Positions 7,867 to 29,556 of a stretch of DNA of 48,875 nucleotides are shown here, one piece after another. The stretch spans positions 174,475-223,349 of the forward strand of contig NZ_MU255056.1 of NCBI RefSeq assembly GCF_000227725.2. The letters are read 5' to 3'. This DNA comes from Thiorhodospira sibirica ATCC 700588. Lineage in GTDB: Bacteria > Pseudomonadota > Gammaproteobacteria > Ectothiorhodospirales > Ectothiorhodospiraceae. The position numbers and the translations under genes are program-made. Under the pieces are notes generated by a model that worked only from the letters and a program-made list of their open reading frames with translations, searched no databases and was not told the DNA's origin. Positions within the stretch are counted from its first letter, which is position 1; every line of letters begins with the position of its first letter.

Positions 7867-7896
7867 GCAAAAAAAACCCCGCTATGGAGCGGGGTT
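7867..7896 (-). terminator. Rho-independent terminator of the cold-shock gene
   Basis: On the minus strand GAACCCCGCT-CCAT-AGCGGGGTT is followed by a run of eight T. It lies about 60 bp past the csp stop and before the pilB promoter region, separating csp from pilBC. Confidence 0.9.
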
Positions 7897-7957
7897 CCGG
7901 AATCATGACGATACCAATCTGATCGCCAGGGATAATTAATCTTGATATATCAAGCGA

Positions 7958-8161
7958 TCAGACCGCCTTGACGTTGGCAGCGGAAGGTCCTTTAGGTCCA
8001 TTCTGGGTTTCAAAAGAAACCTTCTGCCCTTCAGCCAGCGTCTTAAAGCCGCTGCCTTCAATCGCAGAAAAATGAACGAAAACATCCTTACCGCCATCAT
8101 CAGGCGTAATAAAGCCGAAACCCTTGCTCTCGTTAAACCATTTAACGGTGCCTGTAATCAC
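7958..8161 (-). CDS. CspA-family cold-shock protein
   Basis: A 67-residue single-domain OB-fold nucleic-acid chaperone. The RNP1-like KGFGFI and RNP2-like VFVHFS motifs are both present. Such proteins melt RNA structure in the cold or in stationary phase. The start is GTG (8,159-8,161) with GAGG eight bases upstream. The gene is monocistronic, with a strong terminator downstream and an AT-rich leader that can pair across the ribosome site. Which Csp paralogue this is cannot be said. Confidence 0.95.
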
Positions 8162-8203
8162 TGCTAATACCTCATAAAAACAAAAAGATAATAAATTTAG
8201 CAG
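8161..8203 (-). promoter_or_regulatory. Leader hairpin enclosing the csp ribosome site
   Basis: On the minus strand CTGCTAA (plus 8,197-8,203) can pair with TTAGCAG (plus 8,161-8,167), which touches the GTG start. The 29-nt loop is AT-rich and contains the GAGG ribosome site. A weak stem around a start region could make translation depend on temperature, as known for cspA leaders. Function is inferred from geometry only. Confidence 0.35.
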
Positions 8204-8448
8204 AAGCGCTTAAAGCACCGGGGTCATGGCTTGGCAAGGCCGCCCATAGGGACTTCAAGATCAACCGCTGAAGCCATCATACGCTTACCGGCGGCGCGAT
8301 ACCAGCAATTTTTGCATTTCTGTCGCGGCAAAGATGGGACTGCGCTGAACATGCGGATATTTGCATGAACTTATAGCGCTTTTAGTCGTGAACTTGTCTG
8401 CTGAAATTTTTACCCATGAAGCCCTCAATCGCGATCAGCAGGAGGCAC

Positions 8449-25450: not shown

Positions 25451-26395
25451 TCAGGCCGTGCGATAGCCCAGCAATACGTCGGCGGCAGTCCCCAGGCTGC
25501 CGTCGTCGCGTTCAAACTGGCCCATCTGCGCCACCTGATCATAGGCATTGAGCCATTTCTGGGTGTGACGATAGTCCAGATGAATGGCGCGCACTCCGGC
25601 ATCTTCCAGGGTTTTGGTGCGCTGCGAGCCATCTTCTGCAAGGCTAAACAGCAATAATTGGGAAAACACCGCATCATTGGTATCAATCAGACCGTCGCGG
25701 TTGTCATCAAAGCGCGCCAATTCCTCAAAGCCATTGGCCGCGCCGTGCTGATCACCAAATAATTCGCGGCCATCGTCAATCAGACCGTTGCCATTGCGAT
25801 CCAGGGCCAGAAACCAGGATTCCCCGCGCACAAAGCTGACCTGCTCAGTGCGTCCATCGCCGGTCATATCAAAGAGGGTGCCTTGGGCAATGCCAGTGGT
25901 GGTAATCCCCTGCCCGCCCAAATCCAGAACCAAGGGATCGGCCTGCTGAGGGGGCGGTTCCTCACCCCAGCGCATCAGTAACTGCCCCTGCGTACGCTGG
26001 CTTAACTGGATGCTAAGTTGCGTGCCGTCAGCGGTGCTGACCTGTACGCGCATTTCCGTGTGCTGCTGCCAGGTCAGGCTAAGTTCCAGGCTTGCCGGTG
26101 CCGCTGCGCTTTGAGCATTTGGCGTCTCGACCACCGACATCTGGGTTTGCGTCGGGCTTGCGCCTTCATCCGCTGGCGTAGCTTGTTCCGTCGTTTTACC
26201 GAACATTCGTTTTAACAGCTGATATCCCACATCGTTTTCAGCCTCTTTGCGCGCCTGAGCCACTGGATCATCGGCGGGTGCAGCGGGCTCTGGAACAGAT
26301 GCTACAGGTGCGACAGCGACTGGCACAGCAGCGGGCGGCCCAGGCAGGCGCGTGGGCAAGGCAGACATCAAAGGGCTAGGGCTAAGCGGCGTCAT
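25451..26395 (-). CDS. Protein with EF-hand-like calcium motifs (RTX/VCBS-associated type)
   Basis: 314 residues from ATG 26,395, with GGAGG seven bases upstream. A proline/alanine-rich N-terminus (about 1-60) precedes a region of LQLSQRTQGQ type and then DPLVLDLGGQGI, FDMTGDGRTEQ, LALDRNGNGLIDDGRELFG and RFDDNRDGLIDTND. These DxNGNGxID loops are typical of the calcium-binding module near RTX toxins, VCBS proteins and some flagellum/adhesin-linked proteins. There is no signal peptide, so export, if any, would be by another route. Function unknown. Confidence 0.75.
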   Translation of the reverse strand: MTPLSPSPLMSALPTRLPGPPAAVPVAVAPVASVPEPAAPADDPVAQARKEAENDVGYQLLKRMFGKTTEQATPADEGASPTQTQMSVVETPNAQSAAAPASLELSLTWQQHTEMRVQVSTADGTQLSIQLSQRTQGQLLMRWGEEPPPQQADPLVLDLGGQGITTTGIAQGTLFDMTGDGRTEQVSFVRGESWFLALDRNGNGLIDDGRELFGDQHGAANGFEELARFDDNRDGLIDTNDAVFSQLLLFSLAEDGSQRTKTLEDAGVRAIHLDYRHTQKWLNAYDQVAQMGQFERDDGSLGTAADVLLGYRTA

Positions 26396-26500
26396 GATTG
26401 CGCCTCCACGACATGAATGCAAGAAGGGTAAGCAGCTTAGCGGCGCGCAGATTGAAAACTTAAGGGGTGGGCAGAAAAATCAGCGCCCGATGCAGCCGAG

Positions 26501-26546
26501 TCAATCCCCCGACTAAAGCCGGGGGCGGGAACATCAAAAAGATGTT
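26501..26546. repeat. IS200/IS605-like end hairpin relic
   Basis: CCCCCG-ACTAAAGC-CGGGGG (26,506-26,525) followed by GGGAACATCAA. Read on the minus strand this is TTGAT, a spacer, then the hairpin and GGATTGAC, resembling the left ends at 3,362 and 4,766. A small hairpin AACATC/GATGTT (26,530-26,546) overlaps. No transposase gene goes with it; it lies between the EF-hand gene and the ISNCY element. Confidence 0.4.
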
Positions 26547-26557
26547 GGGAAGCGGAA

Positions 26558-26574
26558 ATGCGCGGTTGGGTTGT
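26558..26574 (+). repeat. Left copy of the 17-bp target-site duplication
   Basis: ATGCGCGGTTGGGTTGT, identical to 28,016-28,032. The bases outside the two copies differ, so the duplication is 17 bp. Confidence 0.92.
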
Positions 26575-28015
26575 GTCAACCCAATTCAGAAAAGTCCCCT
26601 TTTGTGCAAAGCAGAAGTGTCCCCCGTAGAATGCGTGGTTATGGTGTTTGGGCTGGTGCCGGAGTGATGTTGCCCCGACCTCTCCAAGGGTGGTCCGGCG
26701 CCGGTTTGTAGGTTGGCTTGGCGGTCTGTTTTGCCTTGGCCTGGTCGACGCTGTGGTGGACACTTTTTTCATCATCCAGCGGTGTGGGCGGTTCGCCCTC
26801 AGCCAACAGACGGTAAGGCATGATGTGCCCCTGGTGCAGGAGGGTGATGGTGCCGTCGAAGGCCTCGCAGACGGTGAGGGTGGCACCCCGCAGGCGGTAG
26901 CCCTTGCCCTGTCCCTGAAGCTGATATTCCCGGTTCTTGAACTGGAAGCAAAGGTTCTTGGAGAGCTTACGGGTATGGTGCAGGCAAAGGATGAGGGCCT
27001 GCTCCTCGGGGCTGTGCAGCACCGGTCGGTGGGCATCCTGGGGGCTTTGTGGCTCGACGGCGAAGCGGGCGTTGAAGTCGGCCATGAAGGTGGGGAGGAA
27101 GGCGTTGGCGGCGTCGATGTCCGAGATCTCACGCAGGCGCAGCTCCTTGACCAAACGGTCTTGCAGGGTCTGGTTGGCCCGCTCCACCCGCCCCTTGGCC
27201 TGAGGCGTGTTGGCATGAATGGCGGCGATGTCGAGGGTCTTGAGGGCGCGGGAAAACTGGGTCAGCTCCCCGTCGTGCTCAGGATGATTGACACGGAAGA
27301 TGCTGTGTTTGTCTGAGTAGAGGGCCACCGGACGTCCGTGCTGATCCAGGTATTGCTGTAGGGTCTCCATGTAGGCCTGGGTGGTCTCGGCGGGCACGAA
27401 GCGCAGGGCCATCAGGCGCCCTGTGGCGTCGTCGATGAACACAATCAGGGTACAGCGCGGGCCGCGCACCTCAAACCAGTCATGGGGCGAGCCGTCGATT
27501 TGAATGAGCTCCCCCAGGCAGGGGCGGCGTGGACGGCGCTGATGAATGCGGGCTTGCTTGCGTTGCTTGGGCTGCCATAGCCCATCGGCCACCATCCACT
27601 GGCGCAGGGTCTCGACCGAGAGATGATGACCATGGCGCTCGGCCAGCTTTTCGCAGGCCAGGGTGGGGCCAAAGTCGGTGTAGTGCGTCTTGACCAAGGC
27701 GAGCACCTCCTGGCGTACTGTCTCGGCAATGGCGTTATTGGGACGTCGGCCACGGTGGCCACTGCGTAGCCCTGTCGCCCCATGCTCACGATAGCGGCGA
27801 ACCAGGCGCTTGACCTGGCGCACGCTCAACCCCAGGCGCTGGGCCGCCTCGGCCTGCCGCAGATGCTTGTTCGCCACCGCCTGAATCATCTCTAGTCGGT
27901 CAATTTCTTTGTGACTCATCGTAATGTGCTCCTTCGTCATGCGTGCCCCTCCCGCTTAAATATAAAGGGGACATTTTAGAATTGGACGAAGGGGACATTA
28001 CTGCTTTGGGCTAAC
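26575..28015 (-). mobile_element. ISNCY/IS1202-type insertion sequence, 1,441 bp
   Basis: Bounded by imperfect inverted repeats: left GTCAACCCAATTCAGAAAAG, right (minus strand) GTTAGCCCAAAGCAGTAATG, both continuing into GTCCCCTT. Each end holds two GTCCCC boxes about 20 bp apart, probable transposase-binding sites. A perfect 17-bp duplication flanks it. Long duplications (about 15-18 bp in one branch) are, as I recall, a hallmark of the IS1202 group. The perfect duplication and open transposase frame indicate a recent insertion. Confidence 0.9.
26639..27919 (-). CDS. ISNCY-family DDE transposase
   Basis: 426 residues from ATG 27,919 (MSHKEIDRLEMIQAVANK, AAGGAG nine bases upstream; an in-frame ATG at 27,940 would add seven residues). 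The N-terminus has helix-turn-helix segments (RQAEAAQRLGLSVRQVKRLVRRY) for end binding. The catalytic core shows ELIQIDGSPHDWF (first Asp), LYSDKHSIF (second Asp) and KGRVERANQTLQDRLVKELR (Glu). The C-terminal tail is rich in P, K and T. No stops or shifts. Confidence 0.9.
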   Translation of the reverse strand: MSHKEIDRLEMIQAVANKHLRQAEAAQRLGLSVRQVKRLVRRYREHGATGLRSGHRGRRPNNAIAETVRQEVLALVKTHYTDFGPTLACEKLAERHGHHLSVETLRQWMVADGLWQPKQRKQARIHQRRPRRPCLGELIQIDGSPHDWFEVRGPRCTLIVFIDDATGRLMALRFVPAETTQAYMETLQQYLDQHGRPVALYSDKHSIFRVNHPEHDGELTQFSRALKTLDIAAIHANTPQAKGRVERANQTLQDRLVKELRLREISDIDAANAFLPTFMADFNARFAVEPQSPQDAHRPVLHSPEEQALILCLHHTRKLSKNLCFQFKNREYQLQGQGKGYRLRGATLTVCEAFDGTITLLHQGHIMPYRLLAEGEPPTPLDDEKSVHHSVDQAKAKQTAKPTYKPAPDHPWRGRGNITPAPAQTP

Positions 28016-28032
28016 ATGCGCGGTTGGGTTGT
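28016..28032 (+). repeat. Right copy of the 17-bp target-site duplication
   Basis: Identical to 26,558-26,574. Its last base is the first base of the -35-like element at 28,032-28,037. Confidence 0.92.
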
Positions 28033-28060
28033 TTACTGTGCCTAAAGTATTTGTTATGAT
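28032..28060 (+). promoter_or_regulatory. Sigma-70-like promoter for a candidate small RNA
   Basis: TTTACT (28,032-28,037), 17-bp spacer, TATGAT (28,055-28,060). A dyad with 12-bp arms and one mismatch (28,052-28,063 and 28,065-28,076) overlaps the -10 box and expected start, as an operator would. Confidence 0.45.
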
Positions 28061-28066
28061 GCAGTG

Positions 28067-28185
28067 CACCATAACAGTAAAAGCTTACTGCGATGGTGTG
28101 TCTAACAGGGCCGCATTTCGGTCGTGTTGGCCATTTCTCAACTCCTCCTGCTTTGGGGTGTATGCAAATGACACCCCATTTTTTT
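28067..28185 (+). ncRNA. Candidate small RNA of about 120 nt
   Basis: Between the promoter-like site above and the strong terminator at 28,154-28,185 there is no convincing plus-strand gene. The predicted RNA would contain a hairpin CAGTAA-AAGC-TTACTG (28,075-28,090) and the terminator stem. Both neighbours (the IS transposase and cheV) are on the minus strand, so a plus-strand terminator here needs a plus-strand transcript. The span contains CTCAACTCCTCCTGC (28,138-28,152), whose CTCCTCC could pair with ribosome sites. All functional statements are inference. Confidence 0.4.
28154..28185 (+). terminator. Rho-independent terminator, plus strand
   Basis: TGGGGTGT and ACACCCCA form a perfect 8-bp stem with a 9-nt loop, followed by seven T. 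No plus-strand coding gene precedes it. Confidence 0.85.
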
Positions 28186-28209
28186 GCGCGCTGTACGCGC
28201 TGCACCAAA

Positions 28210-28229
28210 AGCGGCAAAATTTTGCCGCT
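28210..28229. terminator. Perfect 20-bp palindrome downstream of cheV
   Basis: AGCGGCAAAATTTTGCCGCT is fully self-complementary, 26 bp past the cheV stop. It could end cheV transcripts, although the T run is inside the stem. Confidence 0.45.
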
Positions 28230-28255
28230 ATCATCGCCCCCATCAATCCCGGCGG

Positions 28256-29194
28256 CTAAACCTCACCGCGAATGCGCGTCATCACCGCGCCAGCCAGATC
28301 ATTGGGGTCGAACTTGGGGATGAATTTGTTGGCACCGGCGCGTTTAACCATAGCGTCGTTGAATTCGCCGCTCAATGACGAGTGCAACAATACATACATA
28401 TCGGCTAAGGCTGGATTTTTTCGGATCTCGCTGACCAGGGTATAGCCATCCATATCCGGCATTTCAATATCGGAGATCACCATGGCGATCTGCTCATGTA
28501 AGTCGCCTGCCCCCGCCATTTCAATGAGCTTATTGAGGGCCTCGCGCCCATCACGGGTCACAATGCAGTCGATATCAATCTGCGCCAAGGCTCGCACCAT
28601 CTGTTTGCGCGCCACCGAGGAATCATCGGCGACCAAAACCCGCCGGATGCGCTTGGGTGGTGCGTGATCATCCTGTCCTTCCGCCGGGCGAAACAGCTCC
28701 GGCGTCACTGGCGCAGCAGGCCCGGTGACCATTTCCAGAATCTTTTCAACATCAATGATTTCCACCAAAACATTATCAACATTGGTGACGGCGGTCAGAT
28801 AACTTTCCGTGTCTGCGCCCTTGGGTGGTGGACGGATGCTGTCCCAGTTGAGGTTGACGATACGATCCACCGATGACACCAAAAATCCCTGCACCGAGCG
28901 GTTAAAGGCGGTCACGATGACAAAGGCCCGGGCGGTAGATTCCGGGCCGCGCCGCCCCATCGAGCGCGCCAGATCAATCACCGACACGGTATGACCCCGG
29001 ATATGGCTGATGCCGCGAATGATCGGGTGAGAGTTTGGCAGGCGCTTGAGCGGCGGACAGGGAATCACTTCTTGCACCTTGAACACGTTGATTGCAAAGA
29101 GCTGTTTATCGCCAAGGTGGAATAACAATAATTCCAGGCGATTTTGCCCGACCATCTTTGTTCGGCGGTCAACGCCTTCCAATACCCCACTCAT
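28256..29194 (-). CDS. cheV: CheV, CheW-receiver chemotaxis coupling protein
   Basis: 312 residues. An N-terminal CheW domain (about 15-155; FHLGDKQLFAINVFKVQEVI, ISHIRGHTVSVIDL) couples receptors to CheA; a C-terminal receiver domain (about 185-312) has acidic residues D190/D191 and phosphoacceptor D242 in SDIEMPDMDG. ATG 29,194 is preferred because GGAGAG lies about ten bases upstream. It is divergent from flgA, as in Vibrio and Pseudomonas, but the cheR-flgB genes that normally follow cheV are absent: only the candidate RNA locus and an IS lie downstream. Confidence 0.95.
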   Translation of the reverse strand: MSGVLEGVDRRTKMVGQNRLELLLFHLGDKQLFAINVFKVQEVIPCPPLKRLPNSHPIIRGISHIRGHTVSVIDLARSMGRRGPESTARAFVIVTAFNRSVQGFLVSSVDRIVNLNWDSIRPPPKGADTESYLTAVTNVDNVLVEIIDVEKILEMVTGPAAPVTPELFRPAEGQDDHAPPKRIRRVLVADDSSVARKQMVRALAQIDIDCIVTRDGREALNKLIEMAGAGDLHEQIAMVISDIEMPDMDGYTLVSEIRKNPALADMYVLLHSSLSGEFNDAMVKRAGANKFIPKFDPNDLAGAVMTRIRGEV

Positions 29195-29556
29195 AAATAA
29201 ACACTCTCCGCTTTCGGTTGCCAAGGGCTTAGTGCCAGCTATTTTCCATTGTAGCCGCTTCTAAGGCAAATTACTTTTGTTTACGGTGTGATGGCGCATG
29301 TTGAGAGGCTTGGGTGCCTTTGCGTATCGCGCATGGGATTTATTGGCATTCATTGTGCATTCTATCTACACAAACAGCGCATGGCGGTGCGGTAATACAT
29401 AGGCTGCGGAGGATGCAACGTCATGTGACCGGGGATTTACCCCACCGCCAAGCCAACATTTTGACGAAGGCAACATGCTGCCGCTACACCTTAATTGGAT
29501 TCTGGCACAGTTATTTTGCCTGGGGTCGGTACGTGATGCGAAGCGAGGAGTTTTTG
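29195..29556. other. Divergent promoter region between cheV and flgA
   Basis: 362 bp with no convincing gene. It holds the sigma-54-like site of cheV (29,233-29,248). The flgA side has a TGGCAC at 29,503-29,508, but the downstream TTTTGC is two bases too far for sigma-54. GAGGAG at 29,545-29,550 is the flgA ribosome site. Confidence 0.5.
29233..29248 (-). promoter_or_regulatory. Sigma-54-like promoter for cheV
   Basis: On the minus strand TGGAAAATAGCTGGCA keeps the invariant GG and GC at the required 10-bp spacing, but the C and A of the -24 box are poor. The start would be about 28 bases before the cheV ATG. Flagellar genes at this level are usually RpoN-dependent in gammaproteobacteria. 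Weak match. Confidence 0.35.

Follow-up and report, generated by a model that had tools for sequence, protein, structure and literature searches.

The window, by which we mean the whole stretch of 48,875 nucleotides from Thiorhodospira sibirica ATCC 700588, very probably carries, judging from its sequence, a real gene of a small regulatory RNA (sRNA) on the plus strand, situated between an insertion sequence (IS) and a cheV-like gene. Taken as a whole, the explanation that we favour, and regard as rather probable, is a trans-acting sRNA with an anti-Shine-Dalgarno (anti-SD) seed, which would be run by sigma-54 and NtrC in relatives and by a sigma-70-type promoter here. What comparison of the copies shows directly is that body, fold and seed are conserved, that relatives carry sigma-54-like and NtrC-like motifs which are absent here, and that the neighbouring genes differ. 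In the mechanism that we infer, the transcript would be about 118 nt long here and about 86 nt in relatives, would probably bind and depend on Hfq, and would pair by its unpaired ACUCCUCCUGC stretch with Shine-Dalgarno sequences, blocking or destabilising target mRNAs. Relatives would transcribe the gene under nitrogen limitation, using sigma-54 RNA polymerase with NtrC bound upstream as the activator. The window genome would have kept the body at another locus, where the sigma-54/NtrC control region is missing and a sigma-70-type promoter would have replaced it, the RNA starting at about 28068 and gaining an extra 5' hairpin; a dyad over the -10 box would probably be the operator for a protein that tunes this promoter.

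Fold, seed and terminator of the predicted RNA

The conserved body lies at 28098-28185 of the plus strand and is composed of a hairpin at 28098-28134, which opens the part common to relatives and is seen in fold, alignment and covariation, of the unpaired seed ACTCCTCCTGC at 28141-28151, identical in 13 of 13 family copies, and of a U-tailed intrinsic terminator at 28154-28185. A further hairpin at 28068-28097, beginning at the predicted RNA start, is found in the fold of the window copy only among the copies compared. The original prediction of a plus-strand sRNA with an anti-SD stretch is supported, as body, fold and the CTCCTCC motif are kept in 12 other family genomes; the internal hairpin that it described does exist, but two hairpins (28068-28097 and 28098-28134), not one, precede the terminator. 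The terminator is located where it was expected, as a stem at 28154-28178 followed by seven T, although a simple terminator scan did not pick up this stem, probably owing to its interruption. The strand was also correctly described as free of genes, for no plus-strand open reading frame (ORF) of at least 80 aa runs over the candidate.

Folding of plus-strand 28068-28186 yields -42 kcal/mol with a z-score of -4.4, equalled by none of 200 shuffles, and the minus strand is less exceptional (z -2.4 with 3 of 200 shuffles for 28066-28190; z -1.8 with 12 of 200 for 28040-28186). The bodies from the window and six relatives take the same two-hairpin fold in seven of seven cases, with z-scores from -3.1 to -4.2; the seed is unpaired or weakly paired in all seven, a weak partial pairing of the seed region being seen in L006 and L007. 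In a plain MAFFT alignment of the 13 copies, 93.6% of the cells are standard pairs, and this value drops to 32-49% when the pair structure is slid along the alignment, a comparison that favours the true position to some extent, the structure having been derived from some of the aligned sequences. Changes on both sides occur in 7 of 17 pairs (shuffles give 2.9 +/- 1.2, and none of 500 is as high), and further pair types are not in excess on the 13-copy alignment, 144 of 500 shuffles being as high. The fitted alignment A5, which contains weak rows and two minus-strand rows, was excluded as main evidence. Besides the U-tailed terminator of the RNA itself, hfq is present in 15 of 15 genomes tested.

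Distribution and control region in relatives

When the window genome and 95 relatives (96 genomes in all) were searched at the DNA level, 25 gave a match at E <= 0.1; the matches with E above about 1e-3 were short and were set aside. Six relatives, all of the same family, are convincing (E from 3e-14 to 3e-5), and their matches fall within 28116-28189 of the window, a part that comprises the seed and the terminator and not the sigma-70-like promoter. A covariance model, R1, built from these six and the window sequence and run over 47 family genomes, recognised 13 of them at E < 1e-7, namely the window genome, the sole g2 genome, all five of g4, six of the ten of g5 (none of which had entered the building set) and none of the 30 of g3. 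The carriers belong to Thioalkalivibrio and Ectothiorhodospira, with one MAG and the window genome in addition. A pattern scan of contigs gave eight stretches, all of this RNA kind, in Thioalkalivibrio denitrificans, T. sulfidiphilus, a Thioalkalivibrio MAG, four Ectothiorhodospira and a Chromatiales MAG, which correspond by sequence to g4, g5 and g2. Of the promoter, dyad and terminator whose conservation was to be checked in relatives, the terminator is kept, as is the body, and the sigma-70-like promoter and the dyad are not the conserved part. The proposition of no conservation beyond the terminator, one half of the original refuting condition, does not hold, the hairpin and the seed being kept too in the 12 other family genomes.

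Four weak matches, L043-L046 (E from 4e-4 to 0.03), were set aside, and none of them has a sigma-54 motif at the usual place. One of these, L044 (1488-1584, plus strand), is a second match within G022, gives 28.5 bits for PrrF against a threshold of 90, and is perhaps an iron-responsive sRNA.

Beyond the family, a search of 369 genomes of the class gave matches at E <= 0.001 in ten, of which two belong to the family and eight lie outside it. These E-values are per genome, and the two weakest of the eight (3e-4 and 9e-4) would be insufficient alone over 369 genomes; a sigma-54-like promoter backs them. At the level of the phylum, 398 sampled genomes, many of them again from this class, gave the window's own match alone; this sample and the class search both scored only 11-12 candidates per genome, which makes them less sensitive than the family search. 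The outside matches L058-L062 have other pyrimidine-rich seeds and may be analogues rather than homologues. Within this set, the sRNA-like loci L058 and L060 (family f37) have a terminator of the same kind behind a sigma-54-like promoter, with a different pyrimidine-rich seed, ACCCTCCCTCTC, and could represent a parallel sRNA family. The sRNA-like loci L055, L056 and L057 (family f151) have the GACTCCTCCTGCTT seed unchanged and are likewise preceded by a sigma-54-like promoter, but their hairpin is otherwise different.

The region before the RNA, which lies outside the covariance model, carries a recurrent pair of motifs. The first is GG-N10-GC, which we take to be the sigma-54 consensus. The 12 other family copies carry it without exception, 24-28 nt ahead of the hairpin and framed as TGGYAY...TGC; the eight outside-family matches likewise all carry it, at 20-26 nt and framed as TGGCAY...TGC. 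When 60-nt pieces are drawn at random from these loci, 1-9 of 300 reach such scores. Further upstream, GCAC-N7-GTGC, presumably the NtrC consensus, occurs with at most one mismatch at 94-127 nt in 11 of the 12 other family copies, the exception, L036 (G009), having a site with two mismatches. Outside the family it is found at 89-133 nt in four of the eight copies and is absent in the other four. A site of this kind arises by chance in 0-12% (family) or 1-18% (outside) of mononucleotide shuffles per locus, so it is the recurrence and the shared distance that carry the weight. Since L036 and half of the outside copies have no NtrC-like site at this stringency, the activator could differ there. 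On these motifs, the RNA family is most likely an anti-SD sRNA under sigma-54/NtrC, that is nitrogen, control.

The window copy: promoter, place and rival explanations

The copy in the window is the exception. No sigma-54-like motif is recognised in it, the best score being 7 of 14, which 288 of 300 random pieces attain, and a search upstream allowing one mismatch gave no NtrC-like site, although ntrC, rpoN and hfq are all present in the genome (3,196,878 bases in five contigs, the window falling within one contig). The place differs as well. A nagZ-like gene follows the RNA in the same direction within about 3.5 kb in six of the seven listed g4/g5 loci (Pfam places those of L007, L052 and L053, the three tested, in glycosyl hydrolase family 3), and a small lipoprotein ORF lies on the other side in four of the seven (those of L002 and L053, the ones tested, belong to the alanine-zipper family); neither is seen in the seventh locus, L038, which spans 3 kb only. 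The window copy adjoins cheV and is not near a nagZ-like gene; the nagZ-like gene of this genome follows a peroxiredoxin gene, and the 4 kb examined there contain no such RNA. The MAG copy lies beside a deaminase gene and retains its sigma-54-like promoter, so a different locus by itself is not enough to account for the missing control region in the window copy; the change would have been a loss here.

In place of these elements, the window copy, alone among the 13 family copies, has a sigma-70-like promoter at 28032-28060, with -35 TTTACT at 28032-28037, a 17-nt spacer and -10 TATGAT at 28055-28060 preceded by TG; the boxes and the 17-bp spacing had been correctly described, and they agree with consensus in 9 of 12 positions. 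Taken alone the match is not significant, three such being found in the 3.2 kb scanned against 1.5 +/- 1.3 expected. The predicted near-perfect 25-bp dyad over the -10 box, TGTTATGATGCAGTGCACCATAACA at 28052-28076, was confirmed as two 12-nt arms, complementary in 11 of 12 positions, with a 1-nt spacer; it is a candidate operator and is rarer, being equalled in 1 of 1000 dinucleotide shuffles of 28017-28110 and in 3 of 1000 random 94-nt pieces of the window. No second copy was found in the genome at up to three mismatches, so neither a regulon nor a binding protein can be named for it, and we know of no operator that fits. It contains TGCACCA, which we take to be an NtrC half-site, but the dyad was rejected as an NtrC site, the halves being wrongly oriented.

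The order of genes around the RNA is an ORF at 25451-26422 (minus strand, no Pfam match), the IS (minus), the candidate sRNA, the cheV-like gene at 28256-29224 (minus, with CheW and receiver domains, convergent with the sRNA) and flgA (plus). The IS spans 26575-28015, its ends being exact to 1-2 bases, and encodes a 433-aa helix-turn-helix transposase (26639-27940). Exact 17-bp direct repeats flank it at 26558-26574 and 28016-28032, and the right copy runs one base into the -35 box, as had been noted originally. The same right end occurs at six other places in the genome, which makes the IS a multi-copy element; as each of these is also followed by AT, the true target duplication is probably about 15 bp, not 17. 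Even at 15-17 bp the repeat is unusually long, and the rve_3 match of the transposase is below its cut-off. A perfect 20-bp inverted repeat, AGCGGCAAAATTTTGCCGCT (28210-28229), separates the sRNA terminator from the stop codon of cheV and is possibly the cheV terminator.

Several other explanations may be weighed against a working sRNA gene under a new promoter. The strongest of them, though unlikely, is a silent, decaying copy: the body would have reached its place by cheV and left the sigma-54 promoter behind, the sigma-70-like match and the dyad being due to chance or unrelated. The missing sigma-54-like and NtrC-like elements, a sigma-70-like match no better than chance and neighbours unlike those in Thioalkalivibrio and Ectothiorhodospira would all agree with this; decay, however, is hard to reconcile with a body, hairpin pairs, seed and terminator that are all intact, an 11/12 dyad exactly over the -10 box is rare, and the inferred start coincides with the first base of the added 5' hairpin. 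It had further been suggested that the IS may alter the expression of the sRNA; it could do so by bringing in a promoter or by removing an upstream activator site, and the IS repeat does abut the -35 box. This suggestion is not supported, and we consider it improbable: the direct repeat reproduces the bases by the -35 box exactly, so that the core promoter is as it was before the insertion, with the sequence unchanged from about -51 onward (counted from the inferred start 28068); both boxes lie outside the IS; and the displaced left flank (26301-26573) has no NtrC-like site with at most one mismatch.

Very improbable, to our mind, is a mere terminator for cheV and its surroundings with no RNA gene at all. 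The candidate does sit between cheV and the next locus, and the inverted repeat at 28210-28229 is a separate element between it and cheV, but the plus strand carries the T run, opposite to the reading direction of cheV, and the hairpin, the seed and the sigma-54-like promoter are kept where the neighbours differ. We give equally little credit to reading the conserved element on the minus strand, as a leader peptide or mini-ORF behind the strong ribosome site AGGAGGAG, with the plus-strand hairpins incidental. In its favour, a minus-strand ATG stands 5-8 nt after GCAGGAGGAGT in 12 of 13 family copies; the frames that follow range from 10 to 61 codons with little in common beyond the first two or three residues, the start is absent in one family copy and in the three outside same-seed copies checked, and the ATG is explained by pairing of CAT with GTG in the hairpin. 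No frame is common to the copies, and the mini-ORF was rejected; reading on the plus strand agrees with the T run and the covariation as well as with the sigma-54-like promoter. In the window itself a ten-codon minus-strand ORF at 28108-28160 lies behind AGGAGGAG, the ATG being the one kept in 12 of 13 copies and the frame not.

Related systems and possible targets

Rfam 15 has no match at the window RNA at either gathering or relaxed thresholds; the relaxed Flavo-1 match nearby (28180-28261, minus strand, 17.3 bits against a threshold of 42) was taken as chance. Elsewhere in the window, 7869-8293 on the minus strand gives a full-length match to the cspA thermoregulator RNA (94.6 bits against a threshold of 78).

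Three known systems have features in common with this RNA. NrsZ of Pseudomonas aeruginosa is induced by NtrBC together with RpoN under nitrogen limitation; it is a processed RNA of 226 nt with a conserved ACAGGCAG motif and activates rhlA (PMC9308961). The promoters of the relatives studied here carry the same two kinds of element, sigma-54-like and NtrC-like, but, as far as NrsZ can be compared by description, the RNAs differ: ACAGGCAG is absent from the body here and the seed is anti-SD. The NfeR1/alpha-r14 sRNAs of rhizobia are connected with NtrBC and leave the anti-SD motif CCUCCUCCC unpaired, three motif-bearing hairpins being described for NfeR1, with nfeR1 repressed by NtrC from a promoter without a sigma-54 signature (PMC10746234). 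An unpaired anti-SD stretch is common to both, as is a connection to NtrBC, which is predicted for the RNA here; in distinction, those RNAs are alphaproteobacterial, with three hairpins and NtrC repression, and the RNA here gives no Rfam match. The Qrr sRNAs of Vibrionaceae are preceded by a sigma-54 promoter and upstream enhancer sites, their activators being LuxO or SypG and not NtrC (PMC10162802). This arrangement directly before an sRNA gene is also what the motifs of the relatives suggest, but the activation by LuxO or SypG and the lack of an Rfam match for the RNAs here set the two apart.

Among the literature matches listed, there was no such sRNA in Thioalkalivibrio, Ectothiorhodospira or purple sulfur bacteria; one study reports other Thioalkalivibrio motifs, and the RNA here could be among its unnamed candidates (PMC11109978). 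Tentatively, and with somewhat less than even confidence, we propose an undescribed family of sigma-54/NtrC-driven anti-SD sRNAs, scattered in Gammaproteobacteria, which would couple nitrogen shortage to the translation of many mRNAs, and whose body would have moved here under another regulator by way of a new promoter with an operator. If so, it would be a natural case of an sRNA passed between signals with its seed unchanged, and would add, in sulfur-oxidising and phototrophic bacteria, an sRNA family without an Rfam 15 match, with an invariant seed and a testable regulator (NtrC/sigma-54). The window copy, having the same RNA body under a different promoter, would serve as a natural comparison for the effect of leaving nitrogen control for another input, and may illustrate how an sRNA gene comes to be rewired.

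With regard to targets, the exact 11-mer complement of the seed, AGCAGGAGGAG, has 75 matches in the 13 carrier genomes, 12 of which are the sRNA genes themselves, and the remaining 63 are no enrichment against 80 for the reversed control; pairing, if any, must thus be shorter or imperfect. In the window genome this complement occurs only at the sRNA gene itself. A duplex scan of three ntrC loci without annotated starts gave nothing at a recognised start. Among the 30 fetched loci, AGCAGGAGGAG stands before a possible start codon in four (L076, L080, L081 and L089), in which no shared gene was recognised. In L080 (G016) it lies 5 nt before the ATG of an ORF of at least 498 aa, which seems to us to resemble acetyl-CoA synthetase and is a possible target in this single genome.
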